Shown piece after piece: positions 3,035-11,640 of a stretch of DNA of 11,640 bases. The stretch lies in the NCBI GenBank assembly GCA_022563625.1, contig JADFNA010000018.1, forward strand, positions 1 to 11,640, in the 5' to 3' direction. The position numbers and the translations under genes were made by a program. The notes under the pieces were generated by a model. It did not search any database, was not told the origin of the DNA, and saw only the letters and a program-made list of their open reading frames with translations. Source of the DNA: Candidatus Zixiibacteriota bacterium (GTDB taxonomy: Bacteria > Zixibacteria > MSB-5A5 > GN15 > JACZUZ01). Positions within the stretch are counted from its first letter, which is position 1; every line of letters begins with the position of its first letter.

Positions 3035-3874
3035 ATGAAACAAATAAAATTCACAAAATACGACGCGGCTGGTAATACGTTTCTGGTTGTCGAGCCAAAC
3101 TCTACAAGAATTGATCGCAGGTTATTCTGGAACATCTCACAAAGACTATGTGATGCATCGGCAGGTGTGGGCGCAGACGGGCTGTTGACGATACGCCCAT
3201 CGCGCCGGGCGGATTTTGCTCTGGATGTTTTCAATGCCGACGGTTCCTGGGCCGAGCGTTCCGGCAACGGGTTGCGCGCCGCCGTTGCGCATGTTTCCCG
3301 CACACGCCCGAGAAAGACAGACTGGACAATTGCCTGTGGACAGGAACGTGTCGAAGCAAAGATCATTTCACGCTCGGCCAAGGGGATAGTGGTCCGAACA
3401 CAGGTCGGGATTCCAGAGTTTTCTAACCTGACCTATACCGGAGTAGCTTTGAAGTTAAGCCAGTTGCCCAAACTGAAAGGAGCCGGGAAATCTTATCGCT
3501 ATCTGCGCATCTTGATTGGCAACCCGCATGTGGTGATTATTGTCCGACGCATTCCTCAAAACTGGGTCGAGATTGGGAGAGTTATCTCAAGGATGGACAG
3601 ATTTCGCATCGGGGCAAACATTGAATTTGCTTGCTCGAAGGGACCCGCTAAGATTGAAGTTCGCTCGTATGAACGAGGTGTGGGACCGACAGCATCGTCC
3701 GGCACCGGCGCGGCGGCAGCGCTGGTCGCGTTGCGAGTTTTGGGCAGAGTAAACAAACGAGTTGTGGTGGATTTCGGTATGCAAAAACTCAGCGCTGCAT
3801 GGATTGGTCCAGGACAGATGGTTACTGTTACCGGGCCTGTGCAGTTGCGTTTTTCCGGAGTGGCGCCGCTATGA
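3035..3874 (+). CDS. Diaminopimelate epimerase-like protein lacking both catalytic cysteines
   Basis: A 279-residue member of the DapF fold family, close to the usual 270-280 residues. Family marks are KYDAAGNTFLVVEP (residues 8-21, equivalent to the HGxGNDF region), GVGADGLL (44-51), FNADGSWAERSGNGLR (66-81), GNPHVV (162-167), NIEF (195-198) and YERGVGPTASSGTGA (212-226). In true DapF, two cysteines in the CGNG and ACGTG motifs act as an acid/base pair. Here both are serine: S76 (TCC, 3260-3262) and S222 (TCC, 3698-3700). The usual Glu of GET is Pro218. Ordinary meso-diaminopimelate epimerase activity is therefore unlikely, and the real reaction is unknown. It is the first gene after the trp attenuator and overlaps trpE by ATGA, so it should be co-regulated with tryptophan synthesis. 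ATG 3035 was chosen because it fits the family N-terminus. ATG 2957 would add 26 unrelated residues. No clear ribosome binding site is visible. Confidence 0.82.
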   Translation: MKQIKFTKYDAAGNTFLVVEPNSTRIDRRLFWNISQRLCDASAGVGADGLLTIRPSRRADFALDVFNADGSWAERSGNGLRAAVAHVSRTRPRKTDWTIACGQERVEAKIISRSAKGIVVRTQVGIPEFSNLTYTGVALKLSQLPKLKGAGKSYRYLRILIGNPHVVIIVRRIPQNWVEIGRVISRMDRFRIGANIEFACSKGPAKIEVRSYERGVGPTASSGTGAAAALVALRVLGRVNKRVVVDFGMQKLSAAWIGPGQMVTVTGPVQLRFSGVAPL

Positions 3875-5364
3875 TTGCCAGTTTCGCAGAGACCCGCCGT
3901 ATGGCAAAAAGAGGTAATGTCATTCCGCTTTTTACACGTATTCCGGCTGACCTTGACACGCCGGTGTCCACTTTCCTACGGCTGGCGAAATCGAAGCAGA
4001 ATTCGTTCTTGCTGGAGTCAATCGAAGGCGGCGAAAAACTTGCGCGTTATTCATTCATCGGTTTTGATCCGTTCTTGCGTTTGGAAATTCCCGCTCCGAG
4101 GAACGGAATATCTCCGGGAGAAAAGACGGAGATTCGGATTACTGAAGCGGGGAAGACTTCAACTTTTGAAGACATTCCTGTTCGAGCCATCAACAACATT
4201 CTGGCCCGCTTCAAACCGGTCAACATACAGGGGGTCCCCAGATTTTCTGGGGGCGGCGTCGGGTATTTCGCCTATGACACTATCAGATGGTTTGAACGAA
4301 CACCGGACCACAACAGCGACACGATCGGGCTGCCTGATTGTCTGATGGGTTTTTATCAGTCATTTGTCGTGTTTGACCATCTGCGCCAGGAAATTATCTT
4401 GATATCAAATATCTTGACAAATGAAGGCAAAGGCGCTCTCAAGCAGAAATATGATAGCGCTCGAAGTTGGATTGAAGAAACCAAACGAAAACTTGAAGCG
4501 CCATTGAGATTGAACACACAACAGGCGCCGAAAAAGAACAAGCGTTCCGGATTAACCGCTCTGGATCCGCGCCCGGATTACGAAAAGATTGTGCGCAAGG
4601 CAAAAAAGCTTATCAGGGAAGGAGATATTTTCCAGGTTGTTTTATCACGCAGATGGCGCGCGCGGCTGGACATTTCTCCGCTTGATTTGTACCGAAGGCT
4701 GCGGCGTATCAATCCATCACCGTATATGTTCCTGCTCCGCTTTGGCGAACGGGCGGTAATCGGGTCTTCGCCGGAGATGCTGGTGCGGGTTGAAGGTGGT
4801 GTGGTGGAGACCCGGCCGATTGCCGGAACGCGCCCGCGCGGGAAGGACCCGGCCGAGGATGAGCGGCTGACTCGCGAGTTACAGAGAGACCCTAAAGAAC
4901 TGGCCGAACATACCATGCTGCTCGATCTGGGCCGAAACGACATAGGACGTGTGTCCCAAATCGGCAGCGTGCGGGTTGCAAGACAGATGGAGATAGAAAA
5001 ATACTCGCATGTCATACATCTAGTCTCGGCTGTCGAGGGCAGGATCAAAAAGAAATTGAGTGCGCTAGAAGGGATGTTCGGCTGTTTTCCGGCAGGCACA
5101 GTCTCGGGGGCGCCTAAAATACGCGCAATGGAAATAATTGATGAGCTGGAAAAACACCGGCGGGGCGTGTATGCCGGGGCAGTGGCTTATCTGGACTTCT
5201 GGGGCAATCTGGATTCGTGTATAGTCATCCGCACGATTGTCAAGAACGGCCGCAATGTGTATTTGCAGGCCGGGGCGGGGATTGTCGCCGATTCCTCTCC
5301 GCGGCGCGAATCCGAGGAAACTGAACACAAAGTCAGCGTTCTGTTTCAGGCGCTTGTTGACTGA
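3871..5364 (+). CDS. trpE: Anthranilate synthase component I
   Basis: Converts chorismate to anthranilate together with TrpG, the committed step of tryptophan synthesis. The protein has 497 residues, normal for TrpE. The N-terminal domain has LLES (47-50), the element that binds feedback-inhibiting tryptophan. The C-terminal chorismate-binding domain shows IFQVVLSRRW (253-262), GSSPEML (298-304), ETRPIAGTRPRG (313-324), DLGRNDIGRV (352-361), YSHVIHLVS (378-386) and CFPAGTVSGAPK (405-416), which together mark anthranilate rather than aminodeoxychorismate synthase in this operon. ATG 3871 overlaps the preceding stop (ATGA) and has GGAG at 3857-3860 ten bases upstream. ATG 3901 is a possible shorter start. 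A longer in-frame start at 3799 would lie inside the upstream gene and is unlikely. Expression should respond to tryptophan through the leader, and activity through LLES. Confidence 0.96.
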   Translation: MIASFAETRRMAKRGNVIPLFTRIPADLDTPVSTFLRLAKSKQNSFLLESIEGGEKLARYSFIGFDPFLRLEIPAPRNGISPGEKTEIRITEAGKTSTFEDIPVRAINNILARFKPVNIQGVPRFSGGGVGYFAYDTIRWFERTPDHNSDTIGLPDCLMGFYQSFVVFDHLRQEIILISNILTNEGKGALKQKYDSARSWIEETKRKLEAPLRLNTQQAPKKNKRSGLTALDPRPDYEKIVRKAKKLIREGDIFQVVLSRRWRARLDISPLDLYRRLRRINPSPYMFLLRFGERAVIGSSPEMLVRVEGGVVETRPIAGTRPRGKDPAEDERLTRELQRDPKELAEHTMLLDLGRNDIGRVSQIGSVRVARQMEIEKYSHVIHLVSAVEGRIKKKLSALEGMFGCFPAGTVSGAPKIRAMEIIDELEKHRRGVYAGAVAYLDFWGNLDSCIVIRTIVKNGRNVYLQAGAGIVADSSPRRESEETEHKVSVLFQALVD

Positions 5365-5387
5365 GCGCTACATTGGGATATTTAATC

Positions 5388-5954
5388 ATGACATTGATGA
5401 TTGACAATTACGATTCATTCACCTACAACCTCGTGCAATATCTCGGTGAGTTAGGCGCTGACCTGAAAGTTGTGCGCAATGATGAACTGACTGTCGCCGA
5501 AGTAATTGCTCTGGGTCCGGAGCGTATTGTTATCTCTCCCGGGCCGGGCCGGCCGCGGGCGGCGGGGATTTGTCTGGAGCTAATTCAGCAGACGGCCGGA
5601 ACGCTGCCGCTCCTCGGCGTCTGTCTCGGGCATCAGGCGATTGGCGAGGCGTTTGGCGCGACAATTGACTATGCGCCGGAACTCATGCACGGCAAGGTCT
5701 CCGAAGTGAGTCATACTGATTCTACATTGTTCGTCGGAGTTCCAAATCCGTTTACAGCAACACGCTACCATTCATTGGTTATTGACCCGGCCAGCGCTCC
5801 TGGAAATTTCACTGTCACCGCGACGGCGGCGGATGGTGTCATTATGGCTCTCGAAGATGATAAGCGGCGCCTGTACGGCGTGCAATTTCATCCTGAATCA
5901 ATCATGACGCCCGATGGCAAACGCATCCTTCAAAACTTCCTGGGAGTAACGTAA
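5388..5954 (+). CDS. trpG: Anthranilate synthase component II (glutamine amidotransferase)
   Basis: Class I glutamine amidotransferase of 188 residues that supplies ammonia to TrpE. The catalytic triad is visible: Cys79 in LLGVCLGHQAIGEAFG (75-90), and His168 and Glu170 in GVQFHPESIMT (164-174). The oxyanion region reads ISPGPGRP (49-56), and the N-terminus MIDNYDSFTYNLVQY is typical. The same family can serve aminodeoxychorismate synthase (PabA), and in some bacteria one subunit serves both, but the position between trpE and trpD makes TrpG the primary call. ATG 5388 begins 23 bases after trpE and was preferred over the TTG at 5373 because family members start right before the IDNYDSF motif. 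A GGGA at 5375-5378 is a weak ribosome binding site. A 10-base direct repeat spans the stop codon and the gap to trpD. Confidence 0.95.
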   Translation: MTLMIDNYDSFTYNLVQYLGELGADLKVVRNDELTVAEVIALGPERIVISPGPGRPRAAGICLELIQQTAGTLPLLGVCLGHQAIGEAFGATIDYAPELMHGKVSEVSHTDSTLFVGVPNPFTATRYHSLVIDPASAPGNFTVTATAADGVIMALEDDKRRLYGVQFHPESIMTPDGKRILQNFLGVT

Positions 5955-5966
5955 GAAGTAACGTAA
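5945..5966 (+). repeat. Short tandem repeat at the trpG end
   Basis: AGTAACGTAA occurs at 5945-5954 and again at 5957-5966, a 12-base period spanning the trpG stop codon. The second copy supplies another TAA just before the trpD ribosome binding site. It looks like a small tandem duplication with no evident function. Confidence 0.6.
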
Positions 5967-5976
5967 CAGGGGAACA

Positions 5977-6969
5977 ATGAAGCACACACTGGAACAGATC
6001 GCTTTGGGAGATGATTTGACTCGTGAACAAGCCAGCGTAATCATGTCTGAAATCATGGAAGGCGTTTTCAGTGACATTGAGATAGGCGGATTCTTAATGG
6101 CGCTCAAGACTAAAGGGGAAAAGGCGCCGGAACTTGCCGGGTTTGCCGATGCGTTGCGCAGTAAATGTGTCAGGCTGGATATAGATGTTACCGATGCGGT
6201 TGATTGTTGTGGAACCGGCGGCGAGGGGTCAGGCAGTTTCAATATTTCCACTGCCGCAGCAATTGTGGCCGCGTCGGCGGGGGCCAGAATAGCCAAGCAC
6301 GGCAATCGTTCGGTGTCTTCACGCTGCGGCTCGGCGGATTTGCTCGAACGCGCGGGAATTGACATCGACCCGGGTCCGGACAGGGTCAAACAGGATTACG
6401 ATGAATTAGGATTGTGCTTTATGTTCGCGCCGCGTTTTCATCCGGCATTCAAACATGCCGCGGCGGCCAGACAGGCGCTGTCAGTGCGCACAGTGTTCAA
6501 CATGCTCGGCCCGCTGGTGAATCCTGCGCATGTCAGGCGCCAGTTGCTTGGTGTATATTCGCGGGATGTCATGGAACTTTTTGCCGAAGCGTTGATAGCC
6601 CTCGGATGTGACAGAGCGCTGGTTGTTCATTCCCATGATGGTCTCGACGAAATTTCTGCGCAGGCGCCAACTGACTGTATAGAAGTGAGCGATGGTAAAA
6701 TGACGCGCAGTGTCATTGATCCTGAAGAATCAGGTGTAACCGCTATGACGTGTCCGGATAAGGCTGGAGGGCCGGATGAAAATAATTCCATCCTGCAGAG
6801 TCTTTTAGCTGGCGAGAAAGTGGGATCGCGTTCGGCGGTAATAATCAACAGCGCTGCGATATTATATGTCGCGGGATGTGCGGCTTCAATTTCCGAAGGG
6901 TCACGCAAGGCGGCACAGGCGCTTGATTCGGGAGCTGCACGAGACCTTCTCGAGCGCTGGAAAAGGTGA
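5977..6969 (+). CDS. trpD: Anthranilate phosphoribosyltransferase
   Basis: Transfers the phosphoribosyl group of PRPP to anthranilate, the second step of the pathway. The 330 residues match the normal length of a stand-alone TrpD, not fused to TrpG. An N-terminal helical domain (1-70) is followed by the PRPP-binding loop CCGTGGEGSGSFNISTA (77-93), KHGNRSVSSRCGSADLLE (107-124), the anthranilate-contacting SVRTVFNMLGPLVNP (169-183), and the metal-binding GLDEIS (222-227). The loop reads GTGGE where GTGGD is usual, a conservative change in a region that contacts PRPP and metal. The start at 5977 has a strong AGGGGA (5968-5973) only a few bases upstream. trpD follows trpG by 22 bases, and the MFS gene follows it after a gap of at most 36 bases. 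Confidence 0.96.
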   Translation: MKHTLEQIALGDDLTREQASVIMSEIMEGVFSDIEIGGFLMALKTKGEKAPELAGFADALRSKCVRLDIDVTDAVDCCGTGGEGSGSFNISTAAAIVAASAGARIAKHGNRSVSSRCGSADLLERAGIDIDPGPDRVKQDYDELGLCFMFAPRFHPAFKHAAAARQALSVRTVFNMLGPLVNPAHVRRQLLGVYSRDVMELFAEALIALGCDRALVVHSHDGLDEISAQAPTDCIEVSDGKMTRSVIDPEESGVTAMTCPDKAGGPDENNSILQSLLAGEKVGSRSAVIINSAAILYVAGCAASISEGSRKAAQALDSGAARDLLERWKR

Positions 6970-7005
6970 CCAGTTGGTACTTGTTATGTGAATTGGGCTT
7001 TTGTT

Positions 7006-8337
7006 ATGACTGATACATCGAAACTGAAACATGAGTGTCCGGACACGACGCAAATGCGTACGACTGCGGCTGAGAATGAAACCTGGCTGGCCCATTATAT
7101 CTCATCGGCCCGGCTGTTGAGCAAGAACGCAAAATTATACCTGGTCGGAGCGTTTTTATTCGGCATAACGCACGCGAACTTTCAATTACTCTTCAATCTC
7201 TATTTGCGCGAGGGCGGCGCCGGGGAATCTACCATCGGTGATGTCTTGGCCTGGATCGCTCGCGGGTCAGCGTTGCTGGCGCTTCCGGCGGGATTCCTGC
7301 TTATGCGTGTGCGACTCAAGCCGGTTTTGATATTCTCTCTGGTTTTTTACTCGGCGGGAGTCTTTATGCTCTCCAGTTGGGATGATTTGTCGTGGTTGTG
7401 GCCGTTCGCCATGATCGCCGGGATGTCGATCACGTTCTTTCGCATATCAGGAGCGCCATTTTACATGCGCAATTCCACACCCAAAGAGCGTCCGCTATTA
7501 TTCGCCCTTGGTTTTGGGATGATGAGCCTGGCCGGGGGAGTCGGTTCGCTCGGCGCCGGCTACCTGGTGGCGTTTTTCAATACACACACCGCTGATTTGG
7601 TTCTGGCGCATCGCTATGCGCTCTATGTAGGGATTTCGATTGGAGCGCTGGCGATCATTCCGTTTTCGCTGATAAAAGCTAAACGTCCGTCTGTGGAAGA
7701 ATCCAGACAACGTCTCAAACTAAGTGAAATACTTCAACGCATGCCGCTCTATTTGCGTGTCTTTATTCCGTATTTCCTTCTCGGGAGCGGGGCGGGGTTG
7801 ATTATACCGTTTCTTAATATCTATTTTCGCGACCGTTTCGGACAGAGCGCCGGTGAGATCGGATTATATTTTTTCGGTGTGCAAATCGCCATGTTCCTGG
7901 GGACCTTGGCCGCGCCTGCGTTCGTGCGCAAGATCGGCCGGGTGCGGACTATTGTTCTCACAGAGCTATTATCAATTCCGTTCATGCTCGCACTGGCTTA
8001 TACCGACCAACTTGGCCTGGCTGTTGCCGCGTTCCTCCTGCGGGGCGCGTTTATGAATCTCGGCCAGCCTGTGGCGACAAATTTTTCAATGGAAATCGTC
8101 AGCGAAAGAGAGCAGGGACTGCTGAATTCAATTATGCACTTGGCCTGGACAGGAAGCTGGGCGCTTTCGACTTCGTTCGGCGGAGCGCTGATTGAAAAAC
8201 ATGGTTATGAGCTTCCGTTTTACCTTACGATCGGGTTGTACATTCTTTCTGCGTCGCTGTACTACCTGTTCTTCCACGGCTATGAAGAAAAAAAGGGCCA
8301 TGTGTTTGTCATCAACAATGGCGTCAATAAATTATGA
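7006..8337 (+). CDS. Major facilitator superfamily transporter embedded in the trp operon
   Basis: An integral inner-membrane protein of 443 residues. About 35-40 mostly polar residues precede twelve predicted membrane helices, with a longer polar loop (residues about 226-247) between helices 6 and 7, as in 6+6 MFS carriers. Helix examples are LYLVGAFLFGITHANFQLLF (first), VFIPYFLLGSGAGLIIPFL (seventh) and LTIGLYILSASLYYLFF (last). The motif after helix 2 is degenerate (GFLLMRVRLKPVL). A clearer charged motif after helix 8 reads FVRKIGRVRTIV. The substrate cannot be read from the sequence. Location between trpD and trpC, with its stop overlapping the trpC start (ATGA), indicates co-transcription under tryptophan control, so export or import of tryptophan or an aromatic intermediate is a reasonable inference. 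ATG 7006 was chosen; GTG 6988 would add six residues, and neither has a convincing ribosome binding site. Confidence 0.88.
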   Translation: MTDTSKLKHECPDTTQMRTTAAENETWLAHYISSARLLSKNAKLYLVGAFLFGITHANFQLLFNLYLREGGAGESTIGDVLAWIARGSALLALPAGFLLMRVRLKPVLIFSLVFYSAGVFMLSSWDDLSWLWPFAMIAGMSITFFRISGAPFYMRNSTPKERPLLFALGFGMMSLAGGVGSLGAGYLVAFFNTHTADLVLAHRYALYVGISIGALAIIPFSLIKAKRPSVEESRQRLKLSEILQRMPLYLRVFIPYFLLGSGAGLIIPFLNIYFRDRFGQSAGEIGLYFFGVQIAMFLGTLAAPAFVRKIGRVRTIVLTELLSIPFMLALAYTDQLGLAVAAFLLRGAFMNLGQPVATNFSMEIVSEREQGLLNSIMHLAWTGSWALSTSFGGALIEKHGYELPFYLTIGLYILSASLYYLFFHGYEEKKGHVFVINNGVNKL

Positions 8338-9107
8338 ACCAGATGTTACGAGATATAATCGCCCACAAACGCGCTACTATGTCCGCTGTCCTGGCGGCCG
8401 CGCCGGATCCGCCGGATTCTCCGAGGCTCCCGTTTCGCGAGCGACTATTGAAGGGCATTCCCGGAACATCTATCATAGCTGAAATTAAAAAAGGTTCTCC
8501 CTCGCGCGGTGTCATGGTTGAAAACTTTGATCCGGCGCTAATTGCGGAACAATATGCCGAAGGTGGAGCTGTAGCGCTGTCTGTGCTCACTGACGAGAAG
8601 TATTTTTTCGGGGCAGCGGAGAACGTGAAACTGGCTAAAAACGTGTCGGATTGTCCCATACTGTGCAAGGATTTCTTCATCGATCCGCTGCAGATGAACT
8701 GGGCCCGGACAATCGGCGCCGATGCTGTTCTGTTGATTGTCCGCATACTTTCGGACCAACAGTTGTGCGAGTTAATCGCGGCGGCGAACGAAGCCAAACT
8801 CGATGTTCTGGTCGAAGTCCATAACGAGGCAGAGCTTGAACGGGCGCAGAGAGCAGAGTCTAATTTGATCGGCGTCAACAACCGTGATCTTGAAACGTTC
8901 GCTGTCGATATTGAAGTGTCAATACGGCTGGGCAAAAGTTTACCGGAAAATATCCCGGCCGTAGCGGAATCAGGCATTCGCAACCGGCGCGACATAGAAA
9001 GACTGAAAGAAGCCGGATACTCGGCGTTTCTAGTTGGTGAAACTTTGATGATGGCTGAGAACCGGGTGAGCGCTCTGAGAATCCTGCAGGGGGAGAGCGT
9101 GCTGTGA
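8334..9107 (+). CDS. trpC: Indole-3-glycerol phosphate synthase
   Basis: A TIM-barrel enzyme that closes the ring of carboxyphenylamino-deoxyribulose phosphate to give indole glycerol phosphate. The 257 residues are normal for a stand-alone TrpC, not fused to TrpF. Motifs in order are IIAEIKKGSPSRG (47-59) with the catalytic glutamate and lysine, GGAVALSVLTDEKYFFG (77-93), PILCKDFFIDPLQ (108-120) with the general-acid lysine K112, VLVEVHNEAEL (158-168) with E161, IGVNNRDLETF (179-189), and the phosphate-binding AVAESGI (209-215) and AFLVGETLM (231-239). The start overlaps the transporter stop as ATGA and has no Shine-Dalgarno site, suggesting translational coupling. The 3' end overlaps trpF as GTGA. 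No long gap or separate promoter is visible upstream. Confidence 0.96.
   Translation: MNQMLRDIIAHKRATMSAVLAAAPDPPDSPRLPFRERLLKGIPGTSIIAEIKKGSPSRGVMVENFDPALIAEQYAEGGAVALSVLTDEKYFFGAAENVKLAKNVSDCPILCKDFFIDPLQMNWARTIGADAVLLIVRILSDQQLCELIAAANEAKLDVLVEVHNEAELERAQRAESNLIGVNNRDLETFAVDIEVSIRLGKSLPENIPAVAESGIRNRRDIERLKEAGYSAFLVGETLMMAENRVSALRILQGESVL
9088..9095 (+). promoter_or_regulatory. Ribosome binding site of trpF
   Basis: AGGGGGAG lies 8 bases upstream of the GTG at 9104. It supports that non-ATG start, which overlaps the trpC stop codon. Confidence 0.7.
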
Positions 9108-9742
9108 AACGCCCTCGAATTAAAATTTGCGGAATCACCCGTCTCAAGGACGCCCGGCTTGTAGCTGACCTTGGGGCTGATTATATTGGCGTAATTTTCC
9201 ACCGGGCCTCGCCCAGATTTGTCACTATCGAGCGGGCGATAAAAATCCACGAGGCAGTCGGGCCGTTGGTTCAAATTGCAGCCGTATTTGTGAATGACCA
9301 ACCTGAACGTATCATTTCTATTTGCCAGAAACTGCAATGTTCAATGGTCCAACTGCATGGGTCGCACAACAAACATTTTATCAAGTTGCTGCAAAAAGCG
9401 GGACTCAAAGTCGCCCGCGCATTTTATGTTACCAGCGAATCTGAATGGAAAGATGTGCGCGAAACTATAGCGGACTTTGCCCTGGTTGACAATCAAACGG
9501 CATCATTGGCTGGCGGCACGGGGCAAACATTTGACTGGAACTGTGCGCCTGAAAGGCCGGTCCCCAATTTGATACTGTCAGGAGGACTGAATGTGCGTAA
9601 TTTTAGTGAGGGAATAAAATTATTCACCCCTGCCATACTCGACTTCAACTCCGGTGTGGAAGATTCTCCTGGCAAGAAATCTGAACGCAAATTGCGCCAA
9701 CTGTTTCGCATCTTCAACAAACTCTCCCGGAACACACGCTAA
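9104..9742 (+). CDS. trpF: Phosphoribosylanthranilate isomerase
   Basis: A TIM-barrel enzyme performing the Amadori rearrangement of phosphoribosylanthranilate. The 212 residues are typical. The N-terminus IKICGITRLKDA (6-17) carries the catalytic Cys9. Further motifs are AAVFVND (59-65), MVQLHGSH (81-88), FALVDNQ (125-131) with the catalytic Asp129, GGTGQTFDW (137-145), LSGGLNVRNF (158-167) and the phosphate-binding DFNSGVEDSPGKKS (180-193), where DVSSGVE is more common. The GTG start overlaps the trpC stop (GTGA), and a strong purine-rich ribosome binding site eight bases upstream fixes it. The trpB gene follows after 15 bases. TrpF is separate from TrpC here, unlike the fused TrpCF of enteric bacteria. 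Confidence 0.95.
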   Translation: MKRPRIKICGITRLKDARLVADLGADYIGVIFHRASPRFVTIERAIKIHEAVGPLVQIAAVFVNDQPERIISICQKLQCSMVQLHGSHNKHFIKLLQKAGLKVARAFYVTSESEWKDVRETIADFALVDNQTASLAGGTGQTFDWNCAPERPVPNLILSGGLNVRNFSEGIKLFTPAILDFNSGVEDSPGKKSERKLRQLFRIFNKLSRNTR

Positions 9743-9757
9743 TCACGTGAAACTGAC

Positions 9758-10996
9758 ATGATTGCAAATAAACGACATACTAAAACACTTCCCGACTGTC
9801 GCGGACGATTCGGAGCCTACGGTGGCCGCTATGTGCCGGAGACCTTGATGTACGCTCTGGACGAACTCGACCAAGAGTACCGCGCTGCGCGCCGGGACAG
9901 GTCGTTCAATTCCGAATTGAGTCTGTTGTTGCGTGACTATGTAGGCCGCCCGTCGCCGATCTATTTCGCGTCGCGCTTCTCTAAAAAAGTTGGCGCCGAC
10001 GTATATTTGAAACGGGAAGACTTAAATCACACAGGCGCGCACAAGATAAATAATTGTCTTGGCCAGACATTGCTGGCCAGACGAATGGGAAAATCGCGGA
10101 TTATCGCCGAAACCGGCGCCGGACAACATGGACTGGCGACAGCCACCGCCTGCGCATTGTTCGGACTCGAATGTGTCATCTATATGGGCGCCAAGGATGT
10201 TGCACGCCAGGCAAGTAATGTGCGCAAAATCGAACTGTTGGGCGCCAGGGTAACGACGGTTGCCAGCGGCGCGCAAACGTTAAAAGATGCTACCAACGAA
10301 GCGCTGCGCGACTGGGTAACGAATGTCAGAAACACGTTTTATGTTATCGGTTCTGTGGTCGGGCCGCATCCGTATCCGTACATTGTACGTGAGTTTCAGA
10401 AAATCATCGGACGTGAAGCTAAAAGGCAGATCAAACAAAAACTAAATCGCCTGCCGGATTATCTGGTGGCCTGTGTGGGCGGCGGATCAAACGCTATCGG
10501 ATTGTTTCACGCTTTCCTGTCTGATACATCAGTGCGCATGATCGGAGTCGAGGCCGCCGGCAAAGGACTCACATCAGGAAAGCACAGCGCTACGCTCATG
10601 CGTGGCAAACCCGGCGCGTTGCATGGCTCATACAGCTATTTGCTGTTTGATTCAGACGGACAGATTACATTGCCGCATTCAATTTCTGCCGGGTTGGATT
10701 ATCCTGGAGTCGGACCAGAACACGCATATCTCAAAGATAGCGGACGGGTTTCCTACAAAGCGGTAACCGACAAGCAGGCGCTGGAGGCATTCAGGCTGCT
10801 TTCGCTAACCGAGGGGATTGTGCCGGCTCTGGAATGCTCACACGCGCTGGCGTATATCATGTACGGACCAGAGTTCAAGAGCAGATCACCCAGGCGCCGT
10901 CGCCCGGTTGTTTTGCTGTCATTGTCCGGCCGGGGAGACAAGGACATGGACATTGTGGAGGCCAATCTGGAAGTCGCCCGGAGGAACAGCAGGTGA
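9758..10996 (+). CDS. trpB: Tryptophan synthase beta subunit
   Basis: A PLP enzyme of 412 residues that condenses indole with serine to make tryptophan, working in an alpha2-beta2 complex with TrpA. Family marks are [15 protein letters not shown] (17-31), the lysine K96 in [12 protein letters not shown] (89-100) that binds PLP, the catalytic E118 in [13 protein letters not shown] (117-129), the phosphate-binding loop [11 protein letters not shown] (240-250), and the late motifs YPGVGPEH and [12 protein letters not shown]. Length and motifs fit the TrpB1 type that pairs with TrpA, not the longer TrpB2 type. ATG 9758 has only a weak GTGA-like site upstream. The 3' end overlaps the trpA GTG start, in line with equal production of the two subunits. 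Confidence 0.97.
10980..10984 (+). promoter_or_regulatory. Ribosome binding site of trpA
   Basis: GGAGG lies inside the end of trpB, 8 bases before the GTG at 10993. It supports this start over the later ATG at 11062. Confidence 0.7.
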
Positions 10997-11640
10997 ATCT
11001 GATCAAGAACTTGAAGAGCGCTCCGGTAACGCGTGTCGGTAGATGTTTAACTGAGCGCAGGATGCGGGGTGGAAAGCTGTTGATTCCATTTTTTACAGCG
11101 GGGTATCCATCGCTGGCTGTCACGCGGCGCCTGCTGTTGAGCGCCGCTGAGGCCGGGGCTGACCTGATTGAAATCGGCATGCCGTTTTCCGACCCGCTGG
11201 CGGACGGACCCACTATACAATATTCCAGCCAGGCGGCGCTGGAATCAGGGATGACGCTGAGAAAGACTCTTGATCTTGTCGCAGAGATGTCTTCAAAGAT
11301 TAGTGTACCCATTTTGCTGATGGGGTATTACAATCCTCTTCTGGCGTTCGGGCTGGGACGATTCTGCGCCGCAGCCCGAAACTCCGGTGTCGCCGGGCTG
11401 ATTATCCCGGACCTCCCGCCTGAAGAGGCGCTGGAGTTGAGCGGGGCCTGCCGCAGGACTGGCATCTCACTGACATTTTTTGCGGCGCCGACGTCAACTG
11501 TTCGGCGAATAGAACTGGCGGGAAAAATGTCGACCGATTTCGTCTATGCGGTCACTGTGACAGGTGTGACCGGAGCGCGCAAGCGATACGCAGTCAATAC
11601 TGGCGCTTATCTTAGAAAAGTCCGTCGTCTGGCCCAGAAA
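10993..11640 (+). CDS. trpA: Tryptophan synthase alpha subunit (3' end beyond the window)
   Basis: A TIM-barrel lyase that splits indole glycerol phosphate and channels indole to TrpB. The open frame runs uninterrupted for 216 codons to the window edge. Full TrpA is about 260-270 residues, so roughly the last fifth is outside. Visible motifs are [12 protein letters not shown] (29-40), [19 protein letters not shown] (58-76) with the two catalytic acids E60 and D71, [10 protein letters not shown] (106-115), [11 protein letters not shown] (135-145) and [12 protein letters not shown] (185-196), where the family usually has SVTGVTG. The GTG start overlaps the trpB stop (GTGA) and has GGAGG eight bases upstream. 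It gives a somewhat extended N-terminus. ATG 11062, just before the first barrel strand, is less likely because it would leave the preceding in-frame stretch without use. Confidence 0.95.

Follow-up and report, generated by a model that had tools for sequence, protein, structure and literature searches.

Diaminopimelate (DAP) epimerase, DapF, is the standard textbook case of epimerisation without a cofactor, carried out by a pair of cysteines in which one thiolate removes the alpha-proton and the opposite thiol returns one. The thiol/thiolate pair is named for a racemase of the DapF fold in the available portion of PMC11602996, and DapF is an antibacterial target whose aziDAP-type inhibitors bind the catalytic cysteines covalently, according to the accessible part of PMC12039745. 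Departures from two cysteines are documented, in the sections available of eLife e03275, for a natural 4-hydroxyproline 2-epimerase of the same fold with a catalytic serine on one face (Ser93/Cys236) and for a Ser90/Thr256 member of the fold that acts as a dehydratase. Here, we describe a dapF homologue at positions 3,035–3,874 (forward strand) of an 11,640-nucleotide stretch of DNA, hereafter the window, from a Candidatus Zixiibacteriota bacterium (assembly GCA_022563625.1, contig JADFNA010000018.1). Its product carries serine at both catalytic positions, a state written below as Ser/Ser, with Cys/Cys, Cys/Ser and Ser/Cys for the other first/second pairs. Orthologues of DapF that lack both cysteines occur commonly across large groups of organisms, are usually the sole copy in their genomes and, in two lineages, lie within the right operons.

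The gene, assigned from its open reading frame, family models and structural alignment, is an uninterrupted frame of 279 amino acids. An initial annotation of the window had called it a DapF homologue with a retained scaffold, and comparison with DapF families bears this out: the protein scores 166 bits against the curated DapF model TIGR00652 (cut-off 114.65) and 107.8 bits against PF01678, and it shows the DapF fold over its full length, with 27–33% identity in structural alignment to DapF entries (23% to 3fve) and 11–16% to members of the proline racemase superfamily. The same annotation had read serine, serine and proline in place of Cys, Cys and Glu, as the codons confirm: TCC at 3,260–3,262 for Ser76 in the first catalytic motif (ERSGNG), TCC at 3,698–3,700 for Ser222 in the second (ASSGTG) and CCG at 3,686–3,688 for Pro218. 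It was mistaken in treating the Glu of the GET motif as a fixed feature of DapF, as this position varies in the family and Glu, Ala, Val and Pro are all seen there in Cys/Cys genes.

The residues that contact the distal amino acid of DAP are kept. Between 3,074 and 3,676 these are N14 (3,074–3,076), N67 (3,233–3,235), N163 (3,521–3,523), N195 (3,617–3,619), E213 (3,671–3,673) and R214 (3,674–3,676), which we take to be the equivalents of Haemophilus influenzae N11, N64, N157, N190, E208 and R209; H165 (3,527–3,529) is present as well. The six residues occur in 141–143 of 143 Ser/Ser genes, and contacts by Asn66, Asn164 and Asn197 are given for Anabaena DapF in the accessible part of PMC12039745. 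Since the catalytic cysteine pair is replaced, we call the protein a DapF orthologue whose catalytic pair has changed, and a putative rather than an established DAP epimerase.

The window's genome is a fragmented draft, 68% complete, and the serines might in principle stem from sequencing or assembly error, with TGC misread at both codons as the initial annotation had cautioned. Such an error has a negligible probability. A database search with the window protein gave 4,129 homologues at E 0.001 among 7,997 scored, and of the 120 best-scoring entries listed, 119 have both serines (including P0001, a 99% copy of the window protein) and the remaining one is Ser/Cys; Ser76 and Ser222 are also invariant in an alignment of the window protein with 33 relatives chosen from the top matches. 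As for a second dapF in the same genome, which had been raised as a check, no complete Cys/Cys copy was found; the only other DapF match, at the end of contig C209 (G000:C209:1-4954, L329), covers 91 C-terminal residues and is of the Cys type. The 286 bases of this piece have 70% G+C, compared with 52% for the Hsp70 part of the contig and 55% for the DnaJ part, and the frame after it fuses the start of an AAA-ATPase to the end of an Hsp70. The contig is thus probably a chimeric assembly, and we did not accept the foreign-looking fragment as a second true dapF.

The two serines, which the initial annotation had treated as a one-off departure, are far from isolated: Ser/Ser is the usual state of dapF in the window's order of Zixibacteria, in most of the Acidobacteriota genes read and in some archaea. 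Among relatives of the window's genome, 56 of 60 genomes had a DapF match, nearly always a single gene. A two-serine-motif scan of GTDB contigs, which by design favours serine, returned 80 loci, mostly from Zixibacteria and unnamed bins, together with Acidobacteriota, two Ser/Ser loci from Thermoproteota and one Cys/Cys locus (L116). When the search was started from an Acidobacteriaceae gene, all 120 of the best listed proteins were Ser/Ser, including that of Alloacidobacterium dinghuense, presumably a cultured organism; a search from a Thermoproteota gene added the Aenigmarchaeota protein P0247, also with both serines.

Residue counts were taken from 198 distinct DapF genes extracted from the window's order, the whole phylum and Acidobacteriota, a set in which totals run higher for Ser once loci from the pattern scan are included. 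The first catalytic position is Ser in 148 and Cys in 50, the second Ser in 162 and Cys in 35 (with one incomplete end), and no other residue occurs at either. For Zixibacteria, 132 genomes were searched and 116 had a DapF match; the 85 distinct genes read from them comprise 52 Ser/Ser, 18 Cys/Ser, 12 Cys/Cys and 3 Ser/Cys, while 21 additional genes from the pattern scan alone comprise 19 Ser/Ser, one Ser/Cys and one cut at the second position. For Acidobacteriota, 139 of 149 genomes searched had a match, and 70 loci were taken (the 30 best scores plus 40 hand-picked further down the list); 66 distinct genes are split into 47 Ser/Ser, 18 Cys/Cys and one Cys/Ser, and the four removed by a length filter (three Cys/Cys, one Cys/Ser) again have Cys or Ser alone. 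The serine codons are nearly all TCN, with AGY in Ser/Ser genes confined to the first position (7 of 70 Acidobacteriota, 1 of 71 Zixibacteria).

The Cys/Ser exchange has occurred repeatedly. A tree of 134 rows, built with both catalytic columns removed, implies a minimum of 11 state changes (5 for the first position and 8 for the second when each is counted separately). Its rows exclude sequences under 220 residues and Ser/Ser sequences sharing more than 60% identity with a row already in the set; the method was a quick one that left 46 of 131 inner branches weak and does not tell gain from loss. In Zixibacteria the Cys and Ser types are interleaved, and the Cys-bearing L030 and L009/L075 are nested in Ser/Ser groups. 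The Cys/Cys genes of Acidobacteriota form a separate, well supported branch, so that Cys/Cys and Ser/Ser are old lineages there.

These patterns bear on whether the protein might be a catalytically dead DapF with a structural or regulatory role, its meso-DAP coming from an unrelated racemase. Both general acid/base cysteines have indeed gone, and Cys-to-Ser mutants of DapF-fold racemases are hindered in the available portions of PMC11602996 and PMC12039745. A dead protein is nevertheless improbable, given that the 198 genes show Cys or Ser alone at these positions and never Ala, Gly or Thr, that the binding residues are retained and that Cys-bearing genes are nested within Ser/Ser groups.

Gene order points to orthology with ordinary dapF. 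The order aminotransferase–dapF–argS, in several cases with dinB ahead, surrounds Cys/Cys genes (L269–L272, L274–L277), Cys/Ser genes (L215–L218) and Ser/Ser genes (L076, L109), and it recurs around Ser/Ser genes with an insertion of one opposite-strand frame (L268) or of a major facilitator superfamily (MFS) gene (L266). As this order is common to all three forms, the window gene is a positional orthologue of ordinary dapF. In 74 sequences (73 loci plus the window) the 5′ neighbour is an aminotransferase in 45, and the 3′ neighbour is trpE in 28, an MFS gene in 16 and argS in 2; in the MFS-type neighbourhood argS and aro genes lie further downstream.

The initial annotation had argued for a changed reaction rather than decay and had conceived, as speculation, of a PhzF-like or trp-pathway isomerase whose substrate derives from chorismate or anthranilate; whether Ser/Ser genes form a clade beside trp genes was a check it proposed. 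Adjacency to trpE is real in the window, but the same gene has argS, an MFS gene, mpl or lysA as a neighbour elsewhere; at E 0.001 Pfam reported PF01678 alone for the window protein and not PF02567 (PhzF), and most DapF structures outscore PhzF in structural comparison. We therefore rate trp- or PhzF-type chemistry as very improbable and dropped the trp-specific clade: trp genes are one alternative neighbour of dapF, not the key to its function. The earlier claim may still hold in the form of a changed reaction on a DAP-like substrate.

Outside Zixibacteria, Ser/Ser genes are found among genes for DAP and murein. In Thermoproteota, locus L119 has, consecutively, dapA (385 bits, cut-off 206), dapB (169, cut-off 122), an aminotransferase nearest to LL-DAP aminotransferases (344 bits, below the cut-off of 507), Ser/Ser dapF (198.6, cut-off 114.65) and lysA (341, cut-off 297.9), and L121 has the same gene order. 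In Acidobacteriaceae, the Ser/Ser dapF of L117 is followed by an ldcA-like gene (147 bits, below the cut-off of 378) and by mpl (434.5, cut-off 388.7), which encodes the ligase for the meso-DAP murein tripeptide. An mpl gene (413.2 bits) also lies near L120 and an ldcA-like gene at L303 and L304, while other Acidobacteriota loci have unrelated neighbours, such as degP-type proteases and recG.

Genome content was surveyed in panels of 52 and 54 genomes, with dapF residues read in part of the genomes in each. In the 52-genome panel lysA scored above its cut-off in all 17 Acidobacteriota and both Thermoproteota, murE in 48 of 52 genomes, with the DNPR motif in all 30 MurE loci read, and ddh (PF16654) was found in none of the 52. 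To our knowledge, ddh is the sole known bypass. A single DapF gene was present in 52 of 54 genomes, the exceptions being the window's own, with its extra foreign-looking fragment, and G058. The genome of L117 (G062) has dapA, dapB, lysA and murE above their cut-offs, mpl, and one DapF, which is Ser/Ser; ddh was not found in it. Co-occurrence of the DAP pathway with a Ser/Ser relative in the same genome was seen for G062, G077 and G078. Our search of the open-access literature found no usable report on the wall diamino acid of Acidobacteria.

Two departures in gene number stand apart. Genome G058 has two DapF genes (L009/L068 and L075), both Ser/Cys and both within a Ser/Ser group; and none of the four Zixibacteria genomes of family f17 (G139–G142, 92–94% complete) has a DapF match.

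The fold, the gene order shared with Cys/Cys genes, the restriction to Cys or Ser, the repeated exchange, the kept DAP-binding residues and the single copy, together with placement in DAP and murein gene groups of other lineages, lead us to read the window gene as the dapF native to its lineage, orthologous to the Cys/Cys genes of sister families but with both cysteines exchanged and the job retained. We consider it moderately probable that it encodes an isofunctional, cysteine-free epimerase. More tentatively, and at slightly under even odds in our judgement, the two-serine DapF may be an active DAP epimerase whose chemistry arose repeatedly, serving as the sole source of meso-DAP in much of Acidobacteriota and some archaea, and used by Zixibacteria on DAP, or an analogue, from a route yet to be recognised. 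In the mechanism suggested by residue constraint and genomic context, one alpha-carbon of DAP or a close bis-amino acid would be inverted between two serine hydroxyls, each at the N-terminus of one of the two helices that hold the alpha-carboxylate. The serines would carry out proton transfer, with E213 and the helix dipoles perhaps tuning them; the reaction would still be an epimerisation and the substrate in Zixibacteria would be DAP-like.

Several points weigh against this proposal, beginning with chemistry. Serine is a far weaker acid/base than a thiol, and we know of no Ser/Ser member with known activity; nor did we find any report of a natural Ser/Ser DapF in the open-access literature. 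Escherichia coli dapF mutants are viable, so a single dapF is no proof of need. Since changing Cys to Ser in the laboratory hinders these enzymes, natural Ser/Ser proteins must carry some adaptation; yet the residues that accompany Ser222 (A232, E197, N163 and S221) do so in at most six independent supported pairs, and none reached significance at 0.05 among the sign tests seen. Of 70 Acidobacteriota Ser/Ser genes, 30 have Gln or Asn in place of H165, and the dapF of G039 has an internal stop. By the models used, the pathway is also incomplete in some of the Ser/Ser Acidobacteriota, where dapB was over its cut-off in 7 of 17 genomes and without a match in 3 of 17.

In Zixibacteria, dapB was not found (TIGR00036, 0 of 32 genomes; PF05173, 0 of 59, including genomes with Cys/Cys dapF), dapA was over its cut-off in 2 of 52, lysA in 0 of 32, and ddh was found in 0 of 32; dapF is kept and, where searched, so is murE. 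LysA-like matches in G000 and G028 (178–189 bits; L325 and L330) adjoin the spermidine synthase gene speE, in L325 also adenosylmethionine decarboxylase, so these proteins are candidate polyamine decarboxylases. We did not count the matches near 180 bits as LysA, as they adjoin speE in both loci scanned; G004 and G007 have LysA matches of 262 and 274 bits, below the cut-off. No report on DapF or lysine in Zixibacteria was found in the open-access literature.

With these gaps in mind, the enzyme of Zixibacteria might act on a new substrate, another bis-amino acid such as lanthionine from which the phylum's wall would be built, or might catalyse an elimination. The gaps at dapA, dapB and lysA and the association of the LysA-like genes with spermidine synthase speak for such a change, and the Ser/Thr dehydratase shows the fold doing other chemistry (eLife e03275, in the sections available). 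A precedent is offered by Fusobacterium nucleatum, which has no DAP pathway, has lanthionine in its wall and retains a DapF-like gene, according to the available portion of PMC11602996; there, however, the DapF-like protein is a histidine racemase that turns over lanthionine poorly. In genomes with Cys/Cys dapF the upstream genes are missing too, so the gap, common to both families, is no explanation for the serines, and the DAP-binding residues are kept. We consider a new substrate or an elimination unlikely. The substrate in Zixibacteria may be DAP from enzymes that escape recognition, imported DAP or another bis-amino acid, e.g. lanthionine.

If two-serine DapF proteins are active epimerases, the requirement for two cysteines is wrong and cofactor-free removal of an alpha-proton needs rethinking; inhibitors aimed at the cysteines would fail against these organisms, and automated annotation has masked the change. 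Since orthologues of all four types (Cys/Cys, Cys/Ser, Ser/Cys and Ser/Ser) occur in nature, the matter is open to direct testing.

The remaining genes of the window from 1,504 onward lie on the same strand. Upstream of dapF, 1,504–2,748 encodes a class I aminotransferase of LysN/KAT-II type (family models and structural relatives; start codon not fixed), the usual upstream partner of dapF in Zixibacteria. Its best solved relatives are aminotransferase II entries of a type we take to be from Pyrococcus and a 2-aminoadipate aminotransferase (LysN), presumably from Thermus; as the best matches are of LysN/KAT-II type, we dropped its candidacy as DapL. Downstream, trpE (3,871–5,364, family model) overlaps the dapF stop and is followed at 5,373–11,637 by trpG, trpD, an MFS transporter, trpC, trpF, trpB and trpA, the last truncated by the contig end (open reading frames and family models). 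The MFS transporter (6,988–8,337) sits between trpD and trpC, a place it also occupies in many Zixibacteria. At 1–1,379 lies dinB (DNA polymerase IV), which models match only from model position 37–75 onward; its N-terminal part was not obvious by eye in three forward frames of bases 1–420, and the gene may be frameshifted or broken.

Searches also uncovered a separate DapF-like family with the motif EKSGNG, including P0289 (Nostoc sp. PCC 7524), P0324 (Clostridium beijerinckii), P0315, P0341 and P0359. Six or seven of its proteins, read whole, have LASGSSS, LASGSSA or LASGTSS, that is, Ser at both positions with a changed helix start. In the search from the Thermoproteota gene, 74 of 120 listed proteins had Ser first with the second-motif pattern unmatched. 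As cyanobacteria are known to have a DapF that carries the catalytic cysteines (9mro), the cyanobacterial EKSGNG-type protein may be a paralogue with a separate function.

Among known systems, the window protein is closest to DapF itself (TIGR00652; 9mro, 3ejx, 5m47, 1gqz), which it resembles in its whole-length fold, DAP-binding residues, curated score and the gene neighbourhood of Ser/Ser genes in Thermoproteota and Acidobacteriaceae; it differs in its Ser/Ser pair, in an activity that is predicted only, and in a phylum where dapB was not found and dapA nearly always not found. The O-ureidoserine racemase DcsC (7vdy), which we understand to be a Cys/Cys enzyme of an antibiotic pathway, differs from it in both respects. 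PhzF, a cysteine-free protein with catalytic residues Glu45, His74 and Asp208, is like it in fold but has a structural score below most DapF entries, and its model PF02567 was unmatched by the window protein at E 0.001. The histidine racemases CntK and HisR are likewise DapF relatives, with a new substrate, and the host genome of HisR has no DAP pathway in the available portion of PMC11602996. Finally, the proline racemase superfamily members with a catalytic serine, 4HypE (B9JQV3, Ser/Cys) and t3HypD (B9K4G4, Ser/Thr), share the fold class and, in what is available on them, a natural serine acid/base on one face, whereas they have one serine only, act on other substrates and are 11–16% identical to the window protein in structural alignment.
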